Shown piece after piece: positions 8,294 through 23,820 of a stretch of 64,000 nucleotides of DNA. Source of the stretch: Bdellovibrio bacteriovorus (GTDB lineage: Bacteria > Bdellovibrionota > Bdellovibrionia > Bdellovibrionales > Bdellovibrionaceae). Both the position numbers and the translations under genes were made by a program. The notes below the pieces were generated by a model. It was not told the DNA's origin. It worked only from the letters and a program-made list of their open reading frames with translations, and searched no databases. The stretch covers positions 1,364,001 to 1,428,000 of the forward strand of contig NZ_CP020946.1 of the NCBI RefSeq assembly GCF_002208115.1, in the 5' to 3' direction. Positions within the stretch are counted from its first letter, which is position 1. Every line of letters starts with the position of its first letter.

Positions 8294-10498
8294 ATGGACA
8301 ATCACAATCACAATCACAATCACCATGGGCATATTCACGAAAACAAAAAGCCGGAGCTGACAACGCCGTTGGCTTCAGCGGATGTTGAATACACTTGTCC
8401 TATGCATCCTCAAATCCGACAAAAGGGTCCTGGGAACTGTCCTATCTGCGGGATGACTCTGGAGCCAGTGACGCCCACTTTGTCTATTGAAGAGGATAAT
8501 ACCGAATATCTGGATATGAAAAGACGCTTTTGGGTGGCGACGGGATTGAGTGTTCCATTGGTCTTTGTAACAATGGGAGGCCGCCACCTGATCCACTCCA
8601 GGGGTTTTTTGGAAGCAATGCCGTGGGTCGAGCTCCTTTTGGCGACTCCAGTTGTCGTCTGGGGCGGATGGCCCTTTTATGTGAAGTTCTGGCAGTCTAT
8701 AAAAAACAAATCTCTGAATATGTTTACGCTGATCGGACTTGGCGTCGCAGTGGCATATATTTACAGCCTTATTGCGGTTCTAATCCCCGAAGTTTTTCCT
8801 GAATCTTTCAAAGATCCGATGACAGGGGAAGTGGGATTGTACTTTGAAGCGGCAAGTGTGATTGTCACGCTTGTTTTGTTGGGACAGGTGTTGGAGCTGA
8901 AAGCTCGGGGCCAGACCAGTGCTGCGATAAAGTCATTGTTGGGGTTGGCTCCCAAGACAGCCCGAAAAGTCATGCCTGATGGTTCGGATGTTGATGTTCC
9001 TCTTGATGAAATTCATGTTGGAGATAAAATTCGTGTTCGCCCAGGGGAAAAAATCCCGGTGGATGGCCTTGTTTTATCCGGCTCCTCTTCTGTGGATGAA
9101 TCCATGGTCAGCGGAGAGCCTGTTCCTGTGGAGAAAACGCAAGGGGCAAAGGTTGTCGGTGCCACTATCAATGGGACGGGAACGCTGCTGATGCAGGCTG
9201 AGAAAGTCGGAAAGGACACCCTGCTTTCCCAGATTGTCCAGATGGTGGCAGAAGCGCAAAGATCTCGCGCGCCAATTCAAAAATTGGTTGATCATGTATC
9301 CGCTTACTTTGTTCCTGCGGTGATTTTAGTGGCGGTACTCACTTTCGTCATTTGGTCGATCTGGGGAGTGGAGCCAAAGCTGGCTCATGCTGTGATTAAT
9401 GCAGTAGCTGTTCTGATCATTGCTTGTCCTTGCGCCTTGGGTCTGGCGACTCCGATGTCAATCATGGTAGCGACGGGGCGGGGTGCAACCATGGGAGTTC
9501 TTTTTAGAAATGCCGAGGCCATTGAGCTGATGAGAAAAGTTGACACTCTTGTTGTGGATAAGACGGGCACATTGACGGTAGGGAAGCCGAAGTTAGTCAC
9601 GGTGATTGCTCTAGGAGAGCATTCGGAAAATGTGCTTCTAAGTCTGAGCTCCGGCCTGGAGATTTTGAGTGAGCATCCTTTGGCGGCCGCGATAGTTTCA
9701 GGAGCGAAAGAAAAGAATATTGAAATCAGTGCAGCTCAGGACTTTAATTCCGTGACGGGAAAAGGGGCTTTGGCGCAAGTGGCGGGATATCAGGTTGCCA
9801 TTGGTAACAAGGCTCTGATGGAGGAAGTTTCCGTTAAGCTGGGAGACTCTGAAGCTCGCGCTGATCAATTGCGGGAAGATGGTCAAACTGTGATGTACGT
9901 GGCAATTGATGGCAAATTAGCGGGACTTTTGGGCGTCAGCGACCCTATCAAAGACAGCACCTTGCCGGCGATTAAAGCTCTTCGAGATGCAGGCATCAAG
10001 GTCATCATGATGACCGGAGACAATAAAAAAACGGCGGCGTCGGTGGCCAAAAAAGTGGGGCTGGATGACTACTTTGCGGATGTTCTTCCTCAGGGTAAGG
10101 CAGATCTTGTAAAGAAGCTGCAAAGTGAGGGATCTTTTGTGGGAATGGCCGGGGATGGTATCAACGATGCTCCAGCCTTGGCCCAAGCTCAGGTAGGAAT
10201 TGCAATGGGAACGGGTACTGATGTTGCAATGAATAGCGCTGGGGTGACACTGATTAAAGGAGATCTGACGGGAATAGTGAGAGCGCGCGGACTGAGCGAA
10301 GCAACATTGAAGAACATTCGACAGAATCTATTCTTCGCATTTGTCTATAACTCATTGGGAGTGCCAGTGGCTGCTGGTATTTTATATCCTTTATTTGGAA
10401 TTCTTTTGAGCCCAATTTTTGCTGCTGCGGCAATGGCACTAAGTTCTGTTTCCGTGATCGTCAATTCCTTGATGTTAAAGAGGGCCAGAATTAAATAA
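8294..10498 (+). CDS. copA: copper-exporting P-type ATPase (P1B-1 type)
   Basis: A 734-residue inner-membrane pump that drives Cu(I) or Ag(I) out of the cytoplasm with ATP. The N terminus is a histidine/asparagine tract ([10 protein letters not shown]), followed by a heavy-metal-binding domain (YTCPMHPQI...CPICGM, residues about 35-60) in place of the usual CxxC ferredoxin-like domains. The ion site [10 protein letters not shown] is near residue 378, the phosphorylation motif DKTGTLT near 421 and the hinge GDGINDAPA near 620. The last two membrane helices carry YNSLGVP and [12 protein letters not shown], the signature of Cu(I)-type pumps. GAGGAG ribosome site. A terminator follows. Confidence 0.93.
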
Positions 10499-10531
10499 AA
10501 TGCCCTTGAAGTGGTTTCAGGGGCATTTTAT
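10497..10531. terminator. bidirectional terminator
   Basis: AAAATGCCC with GGGGCATTTT, inner TTGAA/TTTCA, between the copper ATPase and the convergent S9 peptidase. Confidence 0.85.
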
Positions 10532-10538
10532 TACCGAC

Positions 10539-12518
10539 TTACTGAGGCGTGGTGATAAACTGTGCTGATGAGGCTTTGACCTGTGCCTCAATCGGCTCCA
10601 GACGCCCTTTCAGATATTTCTGCAGGAATTCCTCTGTGATGGCGTTGGCGCCCATGTTGTTGGCCGCTTTGGCAAAGCCGTGTCCCTCGTCAGGGAACAG
10701 TACGTATTCCACTGGGATCTTTTTAGCAGCCATGGCGTTGTAGATCTGATCAGCTTCCGCCTTTTTCACGCGCGGATCATTGGCCCCCTGTAAAATCAGC
10801 AATGGCTTTTTGATTTTATCCACATGAGTCAGTGGAGAGCGCTCTTTCAGAAGCTTCTTGCCTGATGCCGTGGTCGGGTCGCCGACGCGCTTATATAGAT
10901 TCGCACGGAAGCTTTCCCAGTAAGGTGGAACCGTGTTCAACAACGTTTCCAGATTGGACGGGCCGACGATATCCACCGCAGCGGCAAAGGTATCCGGTGT
11001 GAAGGTCACACCTGCCAACGCGGCATAACCGCCATAGGAACCACCCATGATCACGATCTGTTTTGGATCTGCATAGTCGTTCTTAACGGCCCAGTTGACA
11101 GCATCAATCAGGTCGTCATGCATCTTGCGGCCCCATTGCTTGTCGCCGGCATTCAGGAACTTCTTCCCGAAACCTGTGGAAGCGCGGAAGTTCACGCTCA
11201 GAACGTTGTAACCGCGATCTGCCAGCCATTGGTGATAGGGATTGTAGCCATAGTCATCCCGGCCCCAAGGACCACCGTGCACCAGCAAAACCATCGACTT
11301 GCCTGCTTGCTTACGGGCTTGAGTCAAATAGGACACCAGTTGATAACCATCGCGAGACGGGATTTCAACAGCTTCCATGGAACTCATGCGGTCGCCGTAA
11401 GGAATCATGGATTTGGTGTGATACAAAGGCTGGCTCAAAGTTCCGGTTTTGACGTCATAGAAATAAAACGCCACCGGTTTGTCGGTGGAGTCTGCGAACA
11501 GCACCCACTGATTTCCGTCAAGACTCATGGAAGTCACGTTGATTTCGGTATTGAGTTTTTTCTCGATGTTTTCAAAGTGCTTCTGGAAGTCCTTGTCGAA
11601 GAACTGGATATCACGTTTCAGGTAATAAGATGACGCCCACAGCAGCTTTCCTGTCTGTGGGTGCATCTGCAGGCCCTGAATGTCAGAGCGTTCGTCAGAG
11701 GCAACCACCTTGGATTTATCAGACTTGATATCCCATTCGATCAAAGCCGCTTTGTCGCGTTTGCGGCTGTCCAGCAGATAGACTTTGCTGCCGTCATGGG
11801 AAACGTCCACCGCAGAAGATGTCATGCTGTCTTCAAATGGCATCACGGTTTTTTTGACAAACTTTTTACTGCCAGCATTCCACAGGAAGATGGTTGAAGA
11901 ACCGTCTTTGTTCGACTGGCTTGCGATGATCGGGTGGAAGTTTTTATCAAACATGATCCCGGCATAGTTTTCAGTGTTGGTGAAAAGATCCGTGGTGGCT
12001 TTCGTTGTCAGATTCAGAATCTTGTAATCAAAAAACCTTGGATCGCGTTCGTTGGTCATGATGACCACTTCCTGCGGGCGAAGGTGGCTGGTTTCAGCAA
12101 TCTGGGAGGTTACTTTGCCAGGTTTGGTGATTTCTGTGATTTCCCCGGTAGAGACATTCAGGGTGTACAGACCGAAGTTTTCGTCCCCGGCGACGTCCTG
12201 AGTGAAGGTCAAAATGCCCGGAGTGTAAGTCCAATTGTATCTGAAGATGCCACGCTTGGTGTCGTGGGTGACAGGTTTTGCTGTTTCCGGCTTGCCGAAT
12301 TCCTGAGCCCAGATGTTCAGAACTCCTTTGTGGGCGGAAAGATAAGTGACGTATTTTCCGTCAGGACTGATTTTGATGCCGGTGATATCCGGATTTCCAA
12401 AGAGAACTTCGCGCGGAATGTATTCAGCGTTCACGGCTTCCTTCTTGTTCAGGGTTTGGCAGGCGCTCAACGAAAAAATCAGAGCGGCTAAAAATGGCAT
12501 TTTCAATGCTGTTTTCAT
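10539..12518 (-). CDS. S9-family serine peptidase lipoprotein (acyl-peptidase/prolyl-oligopeptidase type)
   Basis: 659 residues. The N-terminal signal with lipobox LSAC predicts a lipoprotein, so it acts in the envelope. The first two thirds look like a beta-propeller (repeated short blades such as ISPDGKYVTYLS), the last third is the alpha/beta-hydrolase domain. The catalytic serine sits in GGSYGGYAAL near residue 494, the acid in GANDPRV near 580 and the histidine in DEGHGFAK near 611. The family cleaves short peptides or N-acyl peptides. AGGAG lies 7-11 nt before the ATG. It stands alone between terminators. Confidence 0.92.
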   Translation of the reverse strand: MKTALKMPFLAALIFSLSACQTLNKKEAVNAEYIPREVLFGNPDITGIKISPDGKYVTYLSAHKGVLNIWAQEFGKPETAKPVTHDTKRGIFRYNWTYTPGILTFTQDVAGDENFGLYTLNVSTGEITEITKPGKVTSQIAETSHLRPQEVVIMTNERDPRFFDYKILNLTTKATTDLFTNTENYAGIMFDKNFHPIIASQSNKDGSSTIFLWNAGSKKFVKKTVMPFEDSMTSSAVDVSHDGSKVYLLDSRKRDKAALIEWDIKSDKSKVVASDERSDIQGLQMHPQTGKLLWASSYYLKRDIQFFDKDFQKHFENIEKKLNTEINVTSMSLDGNQWVLFADSTDKPVAFYFYDVKTGTLSQPLYHTKSMIPYGDRMSSMEAVEIPSRDGYQLVSYLTQARKQAGKSMVLLVHGGPWGRDDYGYNPYHQWLADRGYNVLSVNFRASTGFGKKFLNAGDKQWGRKMHDDLIDAVNWAVKNDYADPKQIVIMGGSYGGYAALAGVTFTPDTFAAAVDIVGPSNLETLLNTVPPYWESFRANLYKRVGDPTTASGKKLLKERSPLTHVDKIKKPLLILQGANDPRVKKAEADQIYNAMAAKKIPVEYVLFPDEGHGFAKAANNMGANAITEEFLQKYLKGRLEPIEAQVKASSAQFITTPQ

Positions 12519-12602
12519 TAAATGGACTCCTGTTTTGCTGAATCATCGTAGGTCAGGCAGATTTGGAGTCAAGAGGCGAGATGCTTTACGCACAATAGAA
12601 AA

Positions 12603-12627
12603 CGGGCCCTATGAGGGGGAGGGCCCG
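12603..12627 (-). terminator. rho-independent terminator of ahpF
   Basis: CGGGCCCT/AGGGCCCG stem followed on the minus strand by TTTTCT, 31 nt after the ahpF stop. Confidence 0.75.
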
Positions 12628-12657
12628 CGAATTTTACAGCAACGTGCCGGTATTCTG

Positions 12658-14223
12658 TTAGGAATGATACATGCGGTCTTCAAATGCCGCCAAAGCGGCT
12701 TTCGCGCCTTCGCCCATGGCAATCACGATCTGCTTGTATGGCGTCGTTGTGACGTCACCAGCAGCATAAATGCCCTTGGCGGAAGTGCGACCCTTTTCAT
12801 CGACGATGATTTCACCGAACTTGGTCAGTTCCACAGTTTCTTTCAGGAACTGACTGTTCGGCACAAGGCCGATCTGCACAAAGATGCCATCCAGGTCCAT
12901 TTTCTCTTCTTTGTTCAAAGAGCGATCCAGATACTGGATCTGCTGAACCTTGTTGCCGTCACCGATGATTTTTTCCGTCTTGGCGCTGGTCACGATGGAC
13001 ACGTTCGGCAGGGATTTCAGTTTGTCGACCAGGATCTTGTCGGCTTTCAGTTGGTCGTTGTATTCAAACACCACGACTTCGCGAACAATGCCGGCCAGGT
13101 CAATCGCGGCTTCCACGCCCGAGTTTCCTCCGCCGATGACGGCCACTTTCTTGCCTTTATAGAAGGGGCCATCACAGTGTGGGCAGTAAGCCACGCCACG
13201 GCCCAGATATTCTTTTTCACCTTCAACACCCAGTTCACGCCATTTCGCCCCTGTAGTGACGATGATCGCGTCGGCCGTCAGGTGTTCGCCACTTTCCAGT
13301 TCGATGGCTTTGACTTTGCTTTCCGTGTGGATCTTTTTCACGCGGCGGTTTTCAAGAACTTTGACCGGATAGCTGGCAATGTGCTGATTCAACTGCGCTG
13401 CCAGTTGAGGGCCTTCGGTGTAAGTCACACCAATCAGGTTTTCAATGCCTTTGGTTTCCTGCACCTGGCCGCCGATTTTTTCCGTGATCATCGCGGTGGA
13501 AAGACCTTTACGAACGGTGTAGATCGCCGCAGACGCCCCCGCAGGGCCGCCGCCGATCACCAGCACATCAAAGTGCCCCAGATTCTTGTTCACAGGTTCA
13601 GAGGGGGCGGCATTGGCGTCAACGCCGAAAGTGGATTCCAGTTTTGCCACCAGATCCAAAAGCTGGATACGGCCGGAGTGGAACATTTTTGCGTTCGCCA
13701 CCAGGCTCGGCACACCTTGGATGCCCAGGGACTTGATGTCGTCCTGAACGTAACCGCCGTCAATGATTTCATGACGAAGACTTCCGTGAATCAAAGCAAT
13801 CTGATTCAGGGCCTGCACCACCTCAGGACAGTTTTCACAGGTCAAAGAGATGTAAGACTGGATTGTGATGTTTTTGTTCAGACGACGAACGCGGTCCGCG
13901 ATCACGCTGTCCAAAAGCTTGCCTTTGCCATCGGTGTTCAGGATGGCCAGAATCAATGAAGTGAATTCATGACCGCCGGGAATACCTTTGAACACGATGC
14001 CCGTGGGCTTGCCTTTATAGTCAATGCGGAACTGAGGCATCGGAGAAGTGCCAGACGCATTCTGCGTCAGCGTGATTTTATCAGAAGTGCTGGCAACACT
14101 TTGAAGCATGTCCAAAAGATCTTTTTGATCTTCGTGAGAGCTGTTCTCATAGACAAGCTCAACCGTATTCTCCAAGGCACCAAAGACTGATCTTAGTTGT
14201 TCAAGAAGAGAAGAGTCTAACAT
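12658..14223 (-). CDS. ahpF: alkyl hydroperoxide reductase subunit F
   Basis: An NADH-dependent flavoprotein that re-reduces AhpC. With the start at 14223 the protein is 521 residues, like E. coli AhpF, and the GGAGG site is just upstream; the longer in-frame extension would run through an intergenic repeat and is rejected. The N-terminal double thioredoxin-fold domain has the redox pair CENC at about residue 129. The FAD site GGGPAGASAAIY follows, and the thioredoxin-reductase-like pair CPHC is near 345. The gene is downstream of ahpC, separated by a GC-rich hairpin and a family 1 element that may set a lower level of ahpF relative to ahpC (inference). Confidence 0.96.
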   Translation of the reverse strand: MLDSSLLEQLRSVFGALENTVELVYENSSHEDQKDLLDMLQSVASTSDKITLTQNASGTSPMPQFRIDYKGKPTGIVFKGIPGGHEFTSLILAILNTDGKGKLLDSVIADRVRRLNKNITIQSYISLTCENCPEVVQALNQIALIHGSLRHEIIDGGYVQDDIKSLGIQGVPSLVANAKMFHSGRIQLLDLVAKLESTFGVDANAAPSEPVNKNLGHFDVLVIGGGPAGASAAIYTVRKGLSTAMITEKIGGQVQETKGIENLIGVTYTEGPQLAAQLNQHIASYPVKVLENRRVKKIHTESKVKAIELESGEHLTADAIIVTTGAKWRELGVEGEKEYLGRGVAYCPHCDGPFYKGKKVAVIGGGNSGVEAAIDLAGIVREVVVFEYNDQLKADKILVDKLKSLPNVSIVTSAKTEKIIGDGNKVQQIQYLDRSLNKEEKMDLDGIFVQIGLVPNSQFLKETVELTKFGEIIVDEKGRTSAKGIYAAGDVTTTPYKQIVIAMGEGAKAALAAFEDRMYHS

Positions 14224-17288: not shown

Positions 17289-18356
17289 TTATTTCAGTTT
17301 GATTTCGACAGAATTCACCACTTTGCTGTTCATGTCGCGAATCTGCATGGACACAGTTTTCATTTTCCAGTCAATTTCGGCCAGGCCGAAGTTTTCCTGG
17401 TTGTAGGTGGCACCCACATAGTGACTGTCAGCGTCCGGGTATTTGTTCGGACGGTTCAGAGAGCTGGCAGTGATGTCATAAAGAGGGCCATAATCTTTCA
17501 AATCTGTTTTCGCGATCGAGGCAATGTGCCGGTCGCCGCTGATGACGATCACATTTTTAGCGCGGGTTGATTTGATCAGATCAAAGAATCTTTGCCGCTC
17601 TTTCGGAAAATTTCCCCATTTTTCAAACTGCGGATCATTGGCAATCATCTGAATGCTGCTGATGATAAAACGAACCTGCGCCGGGCGCTTTAGCTGGGCT
17701 TCCAGCCACTGCCACTGATTTTCACCCAGAATGGTGCCTTCATCCTGAGGGATGTAATTCATCGCTTTGCCTTCAAAACCCGGGCGTTCTTTCAGCGGGC
17801 TGCGATAGTAACGGGTGTCGAGCATAATCACCTGAACCATTTGTTTTTTCGGGCCGATGATTTTGCTGTGATAAACGCCCCCTTGCTCCAGCGGCATGCT
17901 GTTGCGGGTGTAGGTCCAATAGTTCATGAAATCACGGCGGGCGGCATCTTTGCCGGCCCATTCATGACCGCCATCGCGCTGGCCAAAGTCATGATCATCC
18001 CAGGTCGCCATGAAGGGAACTTTTTCACGAACGGCGCGATATTCGGGAACCAGATCCAGCTTGCGGTATTGTTCGGCGATGGGTTGCTGTCCGGACCAAC
18101 TGCCGTAGATGTTGTCACCCGTGAACAAGAACAGATCCGGGTGGGTGGCCGCGATGGTTTTCCAGATCGGCTGAGGTTCATCCTGGTTCGCGCAGGAACC
18201 GAAGGCCACACGTTCAATTTTGGCAGAATAATCGATGCCCCGAGACGGCAGGGTGGACACATAAGTGGTCGCCAGATGCTGAACGTGGGTGGCTTTGTCC
18301 GGGGTCTTGTGAGTGCAGGCGGAAAGCGCCAGTACCAGCAGAATCATTCGCTTCAT
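17289..18356 (-). CDS. PhoD-like alkaline phosphatase/phosphodiesterase lipoprotein
   Basis: 355 residues with a signal and lipobox LSAC (Cys at about residue 14). Metal-binding motifs of the PhoD group of calcineurin-like phosphoesterases are present: FGSCANQ, FTGDNIYG, TWDDHDFG and the later ISGDRHIAS. Members cleave phosphate mono- and diesters such as teichoic acids or phospholipids at the outer face; the substrate is not evident. AGGAG lies 6 nt before the ATG. Nearby is a palindrome TACCCGGGTA (18375-18384), unlikely to be a copper operator because the two halves lack the 5-nt spacer. Confidence 0.88.
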   Translation of the reverse strand: MKRMILLVLALSACTHKTPDKATHVQHLATTYVSTLPSRGIDYSAKIERVAFGSCANQDEPQPIWKTIAATHPDLFLFTGDNIYGSWSGQQPIAEQYRKLDLVPEYRAVREKVPFMATWDDHDFGQRDGGHEWAGKDAARRDFMNYWTYTRNSMPLEQGGVYHSKIIGPKKQMVQVIMLDTRYYRSPLKERPGFEGKAMNYIPQDEGTILGENQWQWLEAQLKRPAQVRFIISSIQMIANDPQFEKWGNFPKERQRFFDLIKSTRAKNVIVISGDRHIASIAKTDLKDYGPLYDITASSLNRPNKYPDADSHYVGATYNQENFGLAEIDWKMKTVSMQIRDMNSKVVNSVEIKLK

Positions 18357-20596: not shown

Positions 20597-20965
20597 ATGG
20601 AAATATCATTCGCTCTCGTTCCGGCACTTATTCATGTGTACATTTTTGCTCTGGAAAGCCTGCTTTGGGGGCGTAAAAGAACCAATAAGACTTTTGGCGT
20701 CACGGAAAGTGAAGCCGCGACCACCAAACTGATGGCCTTTAACCAGGGTTTTTATAACTTGTTTTTGGCGGTGGCGATTTTGCTCGGTTTGCATTTGCGA
20801 ACAGGGGAGGTCACCCACGCGGCAGGCACCACCCTGGTGATTTATGGTTTGGTGTCCATCATTGCGGCGGGCCTGGTGTTGATTTTGTCGTCACGCCGTT
20901 TATGGCGGGCAGCGCTGGTGCAAATCGTACCGGCTGCCATCGCTCTGGGGCCGTTCCTTTTCTAG
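20597..20965 (+). CDS. DUF1304 family inner-membrane protein
   Basis: 122 residues with four predicted membrane helices (about residues 5-22, 52-68, 80-97 and 103-121) and the conserved start region ALIHVYIFALESLLWG followed by FNQGFYNLFLA. This matches the small DUF1304 membrane family of unknown function. Its stop shares a CTAG with the stop of the convergent downstream gene. Confidence 0.8.
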   Translation: MEISFALVPALIHVYIFALESLLWGRKRTNKTFGVTESEAATTKLMAFNQGFYNLFLAVAILLGLHLRTGEVTHAAGTTLVIYGLVSIIAAGLVLILSSRRLWRAALVQIVPAAIALGPFLF

Positions 20966-22611
20966 AACTGCCCTTCACACACGCCCGGTGTTGTCGTCAG
21001 CACCGGATTCGGGTTGTTTGAGAAGTAATCCTTGATATCCAAGTCCAGGTACAGACTTCCGCTTTTGCAGTTTTTGTAAAGTGCGCGGTACAAGCTGAGC
21101 AAATTGTTTTTGAAGATCTTGTATTCCGCCGCAGTGAGCTGCAATGAGTTGCGGAAATAAGTTTCCATGGCCAATTGGGTTTCAGGCGTGCCAAAGACCT
21201 GACCGTACAAACGCATCACACCCTTATAAGTCTGAGGGCTGAAGTGTTTTACCACCATGGTCGCATTCAGGAACAGATCCGCATTGTCCTTCCAACTGTC
21301 ATATGTGGCAGAGGTTTTTTTGACATCTGCAATCAGAGCGTATTTTTTGGCGGTGTTCATGTCAAAGCCACCGTCGTTGTCTTTCAGAAGCATGACCTTC
21401 AAAGAAACACCGGTTTGCTTGATGGCGCCTAATACCTCCACTTCAGCCGGGGTCAACGTGTTTGCGGGCTTCGCCAGAAGCTCTTTGTATTTTTTGTCCG
21501 AGATACTGTCCAAGGTGCCCTGCGCAGTTTTAAAGAACTGGCGGCGTTTGTAGTGGATGTTGCCGATACGATCAGCCTGATCCAGCAGGAAGTCCATCAC
21601 CAGCATGTCAGATGAATCCTGCATGCCCAGCATCTTCTGACCGGCTTTGCTCAATTCGTTGCTGCCCAGAATTTGGGAAACAGGGCGGGGATCTTTCAGC
21701 AGAGGCCAAAAGACACTGCTGTTGCGGAACTGATCGATGCGGGTCTTGTCCGATTTTAAACCGAAGGCCTCAGCATACAGTTCTTCGTTCCCGGGGTTTT
21801 CAGACAGGACGCCGAAGACCTGCAGTTTGTCTTCGGTCAGGATGCGTGGTGTCCAGTAAGCTGTGCTGTTCGCAGAAAGCCCGCGGCGTTTGCCGTCTTT
21901 GTAGAATGAAGTGGGAACAATGCCCAGGCCGTGAGGTGGCTTCGTGTACACATCCGGCAGTTGGGCGACGTTGCCGTGTTTTGCGCGAACCAAATGGCCG
22001 ATCTGATCGTACCAGTATTGATTCAAATAGGTGTTGCCCATTTGCAAACCCAGATAGCGTCCGGCCAAAGCATGATCTAAAACTGTGTCCAGGCTCACCG
22101 TGCGAAGAACGCTGGGTGGAACGTCCACGGATTTAAACAACTGAGTCAGACGGGAATAACCCAGAATGCTTCCCACAGAAACGCCGGGGGCGGCAAACTT
22201 GAATTTCGCCTCTTTGTCTGGATAGCCGGATTTGGCTTTCAGGGCTTTTTTCGCGGAACGGGTCAGAGGGCAGACGGCTTTTTGAAATTGCGCCTCGGTC
22301 ATTCCTTTGGGGACGGTGTAGAATTCCACCGCGACAGAGGTGCTGTTCACTTTCGGGCACCCATAAAACATCTGTGTCTTGGGATGATCGCCGCGAGTGG
22401 GGTACAGATTCATCGCACAAAGAGCGTCTTCGTCTTTGTTGATCTTGTTTTCCAGGCCCGGGAACCTTTGCAGAAGGTAGCACTTTTCCGGGATGGCTTT
22501 TCCCGAAACTTCAATGTTGTAGGTTTTTACAGCGTGTTTATCAAATTGAGGATCCAGATAGCTGTAGGCATTTGAACTGATCAGTGCGAAAGATAGAAAT
22601 GCAGCAAACAT
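20962..22611 (-). CDS. exported protein with Fam20C-like kinase motifs
   Basis: 549 residues from the ATG at 22611, preceded by GGAGAC; the longer frame upstream is rejected because it crosses a terminator hairpin. A signal peptide covers about residues 1-17 (SNAYS). In the second half DMLVMDFLLDQADRIGN resembles the catalytic block of Fam20C secreted kinases (DMTVFDFL...MDRHH) and LLKDNDGGFD resembles their metal-binding DNG segment. Cysteines near both ends (KCYLLQ, NCKSG) fit a periplasmic location. An ATP-binding lysine was not identified by eye. Kinase activity is inference only. Confidence 0.6.
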   Translation of the reverse strand: MFAAFLSFALISSNAYSYLDPQFDKHAVKTYNIEVSGKAIPEKCYLLQRFPGLENKINKDEDALCAMNLYPTRGDHPKTQMFYGCPKVNSTSVAVEFYTVPKGMTEAQFQKAVCPLTRSAKKALKAKSGYPDKEAKFKFAAPGVSVGSILGYSRLTQLFKSVDVPPSVLRTVSLDTVLDHALAGRYLGLQMGNTYLNQYWYDQIGHLVRAKHGNVAQLPDVYTKPPHGLGIVPTSFYKDGKRRGLSANSTAYWTPRILTEDKLQVFGVLSENPGNEELYAEAFGLKSDKTRIDQFRNSSVFWPLLKDPRPVSQILGSNELSKAGQKMLGMQDSSDMLVMDFLLDQADRIGNIHYKRRQFFKTAQGTLDSISDKKYKELLAKPANTLTPAEVEVLGAIKQTGVSLKVMLLKDNDGGFDMNTAKKYALIADVKKTSATYDSWKDNADLFLNATMVVKHFSPQTYKGVMRLYGQVFGTPETQLAMETYFRNSLQLTAAEYKIFKNNLLSLYRALYKNCKSGSLYLDLDIKDYFSNNPNPVLTTTPGVCEGQF

Positions 22612-22617
22612 GGAAAA

Positions 22618-22643
22618 GTCTCCGTATTGTGAAGCACGGAGAC
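22618..22643 (-). terminator. hairpin terminator overlapping a ribosome site
   Basis: GTCTCCGT-N10-ACGGAGAC followed on the minus strand by TTTTCC and then the ATG at 22611. The 3' arm is also the Shine-Dalgarno of the downstream gene, so it may both end transcription of the upstream gene and limit translation of the next. Confidence 0.7.
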
Positions 22644-22689
22644 TAGGACTGCCGAAATCAAAAACCAAGTTACTTTATTGCAAGCAAAA

Positions 22690-23820
22690 TCAGCGCACGT
22701 ACTTGACGCCGTTTTTTGCATCCAGCGTGAGTGAAGCGGGCAGGGAGCTGAGGCTTTGTTGCGTGCCAGATGAATTGTAATAGCGAATGGTCAGTTGATT
22801 CGTTTCAGAAAAGACAAGCTCCACATAGCCCTGCGGAGTGCGTGTGCTGGTGCCCACCAGGTAACGGGGCGAGCTGCCTGCACACGGCATGGAAACCACC
22901 TGTAACTTTTTTCCATCAGGATAAGTGTAGTGACCGGAATAGAATCCATGGGAATGACCAAAGATGACCAGATCCACATTGTGGCTCAGTAAGATGGCCT
23001 CCAAGGTGTTGCTTCCTGCGGTCCGTCTTTCACCGGCCAGAACACCATTTTCATAAACCGTGGAGCTGTTGGCTTTGCTGCTGACAATCGAATACAGAGG
23101 GATGTGACCATAGACCACGCGGGCCCGGGCCCCTTTGGCGCGTGCGGAAGACAGTTGTTCCTTCAACCATGCCAACTGGGCCGTGCGGTTGGAAAGTTTT
23201 GAATAATTCGCATCATCCAAAGAAACGAAGAAAACATCTTCCTTGATGAAAGAGTAATAGAACGGAAAGTTGTCATCATCGACGTATTCCACGTTGGGTT
23301 TGTTTTTGCCCCAGAAGGAATCATACAAACGGCGTTCCTGCGCATAATAGGCATCGTGATTGCCCGGAGTCGCCAAAAACGGAATGTTTGCATCGCGCAT
23401 GAAGGACAGAACTTTTTTCGAGAACTGATTCCACATGTTCACATAGGTGCTGTCGGAAAGGCTTTTCTTTTCACCGTCGATGTAATCACCCACACCCAAA
23501 ATAGCCGCTGGCTGACGCAAGATCATGGATTTCACAATCGAGATTGTGGCGCTGGCATAGGTGCCGCTGGTGTCGATGTTCATGTCGGCGAAGGCATGAA
23601 TCTTCAGCGACTTGGCGCTGTCTTTGATTTCATCATCGGGTTCAGGAGTTGTCGGTGTTGACGGTTCCTCCGTCCCCGGTACCGACTGGGAATTGTCTGT
23701 GTCCGTGCCCGGATGGGCTGTGCTTAGGACGTCAGAGGTTGATGGGGCACACGCAGCGAGAGTTGAAACGAGCAAAAAGGCCGCAAGAATATTTTTAGAG
23801 GCGGTGACTTTTGTTTTCAT
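22690..23820 (-). CDS. calcineurin-like metallophosphoesterase lipoprotein
   Basis: 376 residues; signal peptide with lipobox LAAC and then a linker rich in Thr/Pro/Glu (about residues 27-65). Phosphoesterase motifs: GVGDYIDG, PGNHDAYY, YGHIPLYS and FGHSHGFY. The first metal motif, normally D-x-H, reads FADMNID here, so the His ligand appears replaced by Asn or displaced. The family hydrolyses phosphate esters; the substrate is unknown. The gene is followed, 46 nt after its stop, by a hairpin that doubles as the ribosome site of the next gene. Confidence 0.88.
   Translation of the reverse strand: MKTKVTASKNILAAFLLVSTLAACAPSTSDVLSTAHPGTDTDNSQSVPGTEEPSTPTTPEPDDEIKDSAKSLKIHAFADMNIDTSGTYASATISIVKSMILRQPAAILGVGDYIDGEKKSLSDSTYVNMWNQFSKKVLSFMRDANIPFLATPGNHDAYYAQERRLYDSFWGKNKPNVEYVDDDNFPFYYSFIKEDVFFVSLDDANYSKLSNRTAQLAWLKEQLSSARAKGARARVVYGHIPLYSIVSSKANSSTVYENGVLAGERRTAGSNTLEAILLSHNVDLVIFGHSHGFYSGHYTYPDGKKLQVVSMPCAGSSPRYLVGTSTRTPQGYVELVFSETNQLTIRYYNSSGTQQSLSSLPASLTLDAKNGVKYVR

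Follow-up and report, generated by a model that had tools for sequence, protein, structure and literature searches.

The locus

The stretch of DNA analysed here, referred to as the window, comprises 64,000 nt of a Bdellovibrio bacteriovorus chromosome (NZ_CP020946.1, positions 1,364,001 to 1,428,000). The host genome is a single contig of 3.77 Mb and has Bdellovibrio bacteriovorus among its close relatives. Two neighboring genes on the minus strand, separated by 78 bp, are the subject of this study: a gene for a predicted exported protein with a kinase-like fold and, upstream of it on the same strand, a gene for a metallophosphoesterase. The features are as follows (window coordinates):

20962..22611, minus strand: predicted exported Fam20-like kinase-fold protein, 549 aa (ORF and translation, AF2 model, best Foldseek matches)
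21361..21390, minus strand: second catalytic block LLKDNDGGFD, residues 408-417 (D411, N412, D413; D411 and D413 in 56/56 sequences)
21559..21609, minus strand: first catalytic block DMLVMDFLLDQADRIGN, residues 335-351 (D340, D347, R348, N351), near-invariant in 56 sequences
22102..22176, minus strand: residues 146-170, helix alpha-C with the VPP..R segment after it, where the sequence resembles that of Fam20
22198..22206, minus strand: last part of the strand that precedes helix alpha-C, carrying Lys136/Lys138 as candidate beta3 Lys (conservation and AF2 model)
22561..22611, minus strand: signal-peptide-like N-terminal segment MFAAFLSFALISSNAYS (sequence; hydrophobic segment in family members)
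22617..22644, minus strand: putative RNA hairpin just upstream of the kinase start, its 3' arm carrying the Shine-Dalgarno GGAG 8 nt before the ATG (7 orthologues)
22690..23820, minus strand: calcineurin-like metallophosphoesterase, predicted lipoprotein with LAAC lipobox (Pfam Metallophos, conserved motifs, adjacency)

The probable start of the kinase-like ORF is the ATG at 22611, which GGAG precedes by eight bases; a longer frame that starts from a TTG and extends to 22668 is also present but is not shared by the 85%-identical orthologue. The reading frame is real, since orthologues with 91, 91, 85, 74, 54 and 52% identity extend over about its full length and contain no stops. A hydrophobic, uncharged N terminus of the signal peptide type is present in 54 of 55 family members, compared with 11 of 1120 internal control segments, which supports the secretion proposed in an initial annotation of this DNA. 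Judged by this N terminus, the protein is exported, being either periplasmic or released.

Predicted fold

AlphaFold2 gave confident models for the window protein (27 family sequences, mean pLDDT 89.5, pTM 0.89) and for a 454-aa paralogue encoded in the same genome (L043; 31 sequences, pLDDT 93.0, pTM 0.91). When the window model was compared with the PDB using Foldseek, the best 11 matches were all Fam20C or Fam20A chains (best match: probability 1.00, E 2.8e-3, TM 0.31), followed at insignificant E-values by PI3K delta, ATM, PI4K-II-alpha and HipA. The paralogue model matched DrFam20C first (E 8.9e-6) and then PI3K delta and HipA. None of the C. elegans Fam20, human Fam20C or hydra Fam20B chains was among the matches listed. 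The initial annotation, which made its proposal depend on a kinase fold in a confident model, is thus borne out on this point; of the three structures it had named for comparison Fam20C came out on top and HipA lower, while CotH was absent among the matches listed.

The TM-scores, normalized by query length, are only 0.26-0.34 for the window model against Fam20 and 0.40 for the paralogue, so the relation to Fam20 is remote. Such low global scores, together with sequence libraries in which no match was found, would also fit an unrelated alpha/beta protein that resembles a kinase in its motifs by chance. We regard this as very improbable, as for two proteins that are 26% identical to each other the models gave Fam20 as best match in each case, with other superfamily members next, and as motif order, the D-x6-DR spacing and the alpha-C segment all agree with Fam20. 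From the models we therefore assign a two-lobed kinase-like fold to the exported protein with great confidence, and its placement nearest to Fam20 is well supported.

Conserved residues and comparison with Fam20

To collect family members, 144 genomes of the class were searched with the protein and 369 genomes of the phylum with a profile. In the alignment of 56 family sequences D340, D347, R348, D411 and D413 are found in 56/56 and N351 and N412 in 55/56, while K138 is present in 55/55 and K136 in 53/55; H456 and D523 are also invariant wherever present. The two motifs quoted in the initial annotation are accordingly present and not a product of chance. Members with as little as about 23% identity to the window protein are included, so the catalytic-type residues have outlasted a long divergence. 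Residue hallmarks of the PKL superfamily are present, namely the Lys before alpha-C (K138), the catalytic Asp (D347) and the DFG-type metal Asp (D411); in the AF2 model a strand (133-138) is followed by a helix (146-159). Six Cys are conserved in the family (44, 65, 85, 114, 515, 545).

The likeness to Fam20, whose animal members phosphorylate secreted proteins and sugars, extends over several parts of the protein. Fam20C, Fam20A and Fam20B are likewise exported. Several conserved cysteines occur on both sides, with four conserved disulfides as a feature of Fam20C. The DFLxxxxDR block and the D-N of the second block of Fam20 both occur in the bacterial family, and in the alignment MDFLLDQADR and KDN of the window protein fall opposite FDFLIGNADR and LDN in Fam20 chains. 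The first block reads FDFLIGNADRHH in Fam20B and MDFLLDQADRIGN in the bacterial family, the second HLDNGRGFG in Fam20C and LKDNDGGFD in the bacterial family. Common to both is a D-x6-DR pattern, in which D340 precedes the catalytic Asp by seven residues; its counterpart in Fam20C, D451, is altered in Raine syndrome (PMC7948968). The alpha-C and VPPxxxR segment resembles ILAYYHVSRILGGVGRVPPTVIR of Fam20, and the family HMM scored 3.3-10.1 bits on alpha-C fragments of Fam20A, Fam20B and Fam20C, compared with 0.2 for the best of 500 shuffles. With the catalytic block alone, most Fam20 chains scored no better than shuffles under the family HMM, which we attribute to an insert between the two blocks.

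This insert amounts to about 44 extra residues: D347 and D411 lie 64 residues apart, the corresponding residues of Fam20B only 20, so the Fam20C-style spacing claimed initially does not hold. In the second motif, whose Asn/Asp pattern the initial annotation described as slightly different, D413, invariant in the bacterial family, is replaced by G or A in Fam20 (DND versus DNG/DNA). The Asn four residues past the catalytic Asp is likewise a feature of the bacterial family, unlike Fam20. A further difference concerns the Glu of alpha-C that coordinates Mn, which is essential in Fam20C and replaced by Gln in the pseudokinase Fam20A (PMC7948968), as seen in ERHNAE of Fam20C and QRHNAE of Fam20A chains. 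The family column aligned to it (144, read by hand over a short stretch) is occupied by S, T, V, A or G and never by an acidic residue.

The absence of the essential Glu at the aligned position (for its role see PMC7948968) is the main reason to consider an exported pseudokinase, an option already raised in the initial annotation, in which the fold is kept, phosphotransfer is lost and the protein serves in binding or scaffolding, as Fam20A does for Fam20C; several kinase-fold families are of this kind. We consider it unlikely, because the Asp, Arg, Asn and Lys of catalytic type vary little or not at all across a very diverse family although a scaffold could do without them, and five residues found in 56/56 sequences argue against a decayed pseudokinase. 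The invariant Asp413 could moreover serve as the absent ligand, although such a shift of the metal ligand is no more than a reasonable guess. We therefore hold an active transferase, as suggested by this conservation, to be distinctly probable.

With respect to classification, the original label 'Fam20C-type' is apt in so far as Fam20 is the nearest fold relative, while strict membership does not apply: PF06702 is blind to the family, the motifs are 64 residues apart and the Mn-Glu is missing at the aligned place. Hence we call the protein Fam20-like and not a member of Fam20C; on the models it is Fam20-like in fold and probably also in mechanism.

Other known systems are less similar. The spore-coat kinases of the CotH type (PF08757) are also bacterial proteins with a kinase fold, and CotH phosphorylates surface-layer proteins; it differs in that PF08757 has no match in the host genome and the fold matches listed include no CotH structure. 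HipA, PI3K and PI4K, the next-best fold matches, have a similar catalytic block of the D-R-x-x-N style, but this branch is cytoplasmic, unlike the exported family, and HipA_C has no match in the host genome. Novel kinase families of Legionella, bacterial and formerly uncurated as well, cluster near FAM20 and CotH (PMC9758233). Those are predicted effectors, whereas the Bdellovibrionota family bears signal peptides; the two are set apart here by description.

Distribution of the family

Of the 369 genomes of the Bdellovibrio phylum covered by the profile search, 56 encode the family; as delimited by these searches it is an uncurated kinase-like family spread across the phylum. Scans of the protein and its relatives against Pfam, NCBIfam and PHROGs gave nothing above chance, and neither a sequence nor a family profile search of the PDB gave a relevant match. 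PF06702 did not match the protein by hmmscan up to an E-value of 10, and its cut-off was exceeded in 0 of 192 genomes of the phylum. The profiles of CotH (PF08757) and HipA (PF07804, HipA_C) had no match in the host genome, with positive controls. A search of a viral structure library with the kinase-like protein and a tblastn search of plasmids with the paralogue gave no match, and an exact-peptide scan of genome contigs recovered a single close relative.

The neighboring metallophosphoesterase

The upstream gene product matches Metallophos (PF00149) above the cut-off with an E-value of 2.5e-19. Its GD, GNHD, GH and GHxH motifs are conserved in 12 aligned proteins, while the first motif is DxN instead of DxH, with N81 in place of His.

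A metallophosphoesterase directly adjoins the kinase in 15 of 50 examined kinase loci from four families (f1, f5, f9, f12), in three arrangements: at 12 loci it is upstream and in the same orientation, at 2 it is divergent and at 1 it is downstream. The six orthologues all keep the pair, even at 52% identity, where other flanks have changed, and so do eight less closely related members (L093-L097, L100, L101, L111). Seen from the other side, the phosphatase occurs in 14 genomes of the class (E<=1e-20), 12 of which have the kinase beside it; in the remaining two no kinase was found nearby even at relaxed thresholds. On the kinase tree the pairing appears in three separate places and requires six label changes, where shuffled labels require 12.6 on average.

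As 35 of the 50 examined loci have no phosphatase neighbor, the association is recurrent and not a rule. Synteny within a genus could be inherited, and this, along with adjacency in only 15 of 50 loci, would be compatible with mere positional inertia of two functionally unrelated genes. We think this improbable given that the adjacency recurs in four families with differing flanking genes and in three arrangements, and that adjacency by chance is expected at about 1e-3 per genome (a rough estimate from gene number). The simplest reading of the repeated adjacency is a shared substrate or opposing action, and kinase and phosphatase probably form a functional pair.

A metallophosphoesterase reported to be under selection in Bdellovibrio NC01 (PMC9888234) was considered as the partner and rejected; it corresponds to Bd0054 and has two predicted transmembrane helices, which sets it apart from the predicted lipoprotein described above. 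A PhoD-like phosphatase gene (window 17289-18356) is located about 3 kb from the kinase gene. The two closest relatives also have it close to the kinase gene; it was not found at the same place in the 85%-identical relative.

The leader hairpin

Between the phosphatase and kinase genes a hairpin that encloses the Shine-Dalgarno sequence can be folded in 7 of 7 orthologues. Compared with shuffled sequences its folding gave z-scores of -3.4 to -7.5 in six sequences, and in two orthologues (L086, L087) most of the stem sequence is changed while pairing and GGAG are kept. An Rfam search with the hairpin gave sub-threshold matches only. From this pattern, translational control of the kinase by the hairpin is likely. 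The intergenic region also contains GCTTGCAATAAAGTAACTTGG (window 22665-22685, minus strand), which shows strong conservation among the closest orthologues and may serve the kinase gene as a promoter or binding site.

Possible function

What is new here is the adjacency of kinase and metallophosphoesterase genes and the hairpin at the Shine-Dalgarno sequence. Fam20 has been described as specific to eukaryotes or animals (PMC9758233), and a paper on Fam20 evolution contains no word beginning with 'bacteri' (PMC5865150).

We infer ATP use, phosphotransfer, the substrate and the opposition of both enzymes. The exported kinase would probably bind ATP and metal through Lys138, Asp347/Asn351 and Asp411, with Asp413 perhaps replacing the Glu of Fam20C, and would move phosphate onto a protein or glycan, located either in its own envelope or, in the case of predators, in the prey compartment. 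The metallophosphoesterase, possibly co-transcribed and often lipid-anchored, would probably strip this phosphate or share the substrate. Overall we favor, with moderate confidence, an exported Fam20-like phosphotransferase that works with an opposing phosphatase; whether the substrate is a protein rather than a glycan or small molecule appears evenly balanced.

A different chemistry, such as AMPylation (as SelO) or glutamylation (as SidJ), or an envelope sugar or lipid kinase (as Fam20B, PI4K) has a smaller yet considerable chance of being correct, with the phosphatase then acting on a small product or nucleotide. Nucleotides and sugars are frequent substrates of calcineurin-like phosphoesterases. 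PI3K and PI4K are among the fold neighbors, the PKL superfamily includes such enzymes (PMC10870513) and Fam20B is a xylose kinase (PMC7948968); the present data fail to set these chemistries apart from protein phosphorylation.

The favored phosphotransferase raises the matter of a phosphate donor, for the bacterial periplasm is generally held to be without ATP, so that an exported kinase needs one. A predator growing inside its prey might obtain ATP from nucleotides that the prey releases. More tentatively, Bdellovibrionota might possess a reversible extracytoplasmic phosphorylation by a Fam20-like kinase and a metallophosphoesterase, gated by a hairpin at the ribosome binding site, and predators could use prey ATP to mark the envelope of prey or predator; we rate this broader proposal as somewhat doubtful. 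The origin of extracellular kinases would appear in a new light if bacteria have an exported Fam20-like family with a recurring phosphatase partner, and such a family raises the question of regulated phosphorylation, hence ATP, in the periplasm or bdelloplast of predatory bacteria.

Further members and neighbors

One genome encodes a fusion protein (L016:400-2868 / L131:3902-6373) in which the kinase-like domain is followed at the C terminus by DUF2252, a domain that is itself assigned to the kinase-like clan. Another kinase-like protein of a Bdellovibrio relative (L081:1081-3102) carries NGDRHGFNYL and AIDHGLSFG and matches Fam20B (5xom) by sequence with an E-value of 1e-3. The 454-aa paralogue (L088:7722-9086) is part of an end-to-end gene array (continuing at 9083-13461; also in L089-L092, five genomes). 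The other genes of this array encode a protein with a VTC domain, a domain known from polyphosphate polymerases, a protein of 387 aa, an HlyD-like protein and a membrane protein with DUF4956.

A second recurring neighbor, found at 13 family loci (L090:9313-10113, L092:9445-10341, L093:2373-3062, L103:5125-5904, L132:6470-7294 and others), is an exported protein of about 250 aa with a tyrosine-phosphatase-like loop HCWNGWH(A/S)SG. The loop is without the usual Arg, matches to Y_phosphatase2 and PTPMT1 are weak, and by its sequence the protein may be a pseudophosphatase.
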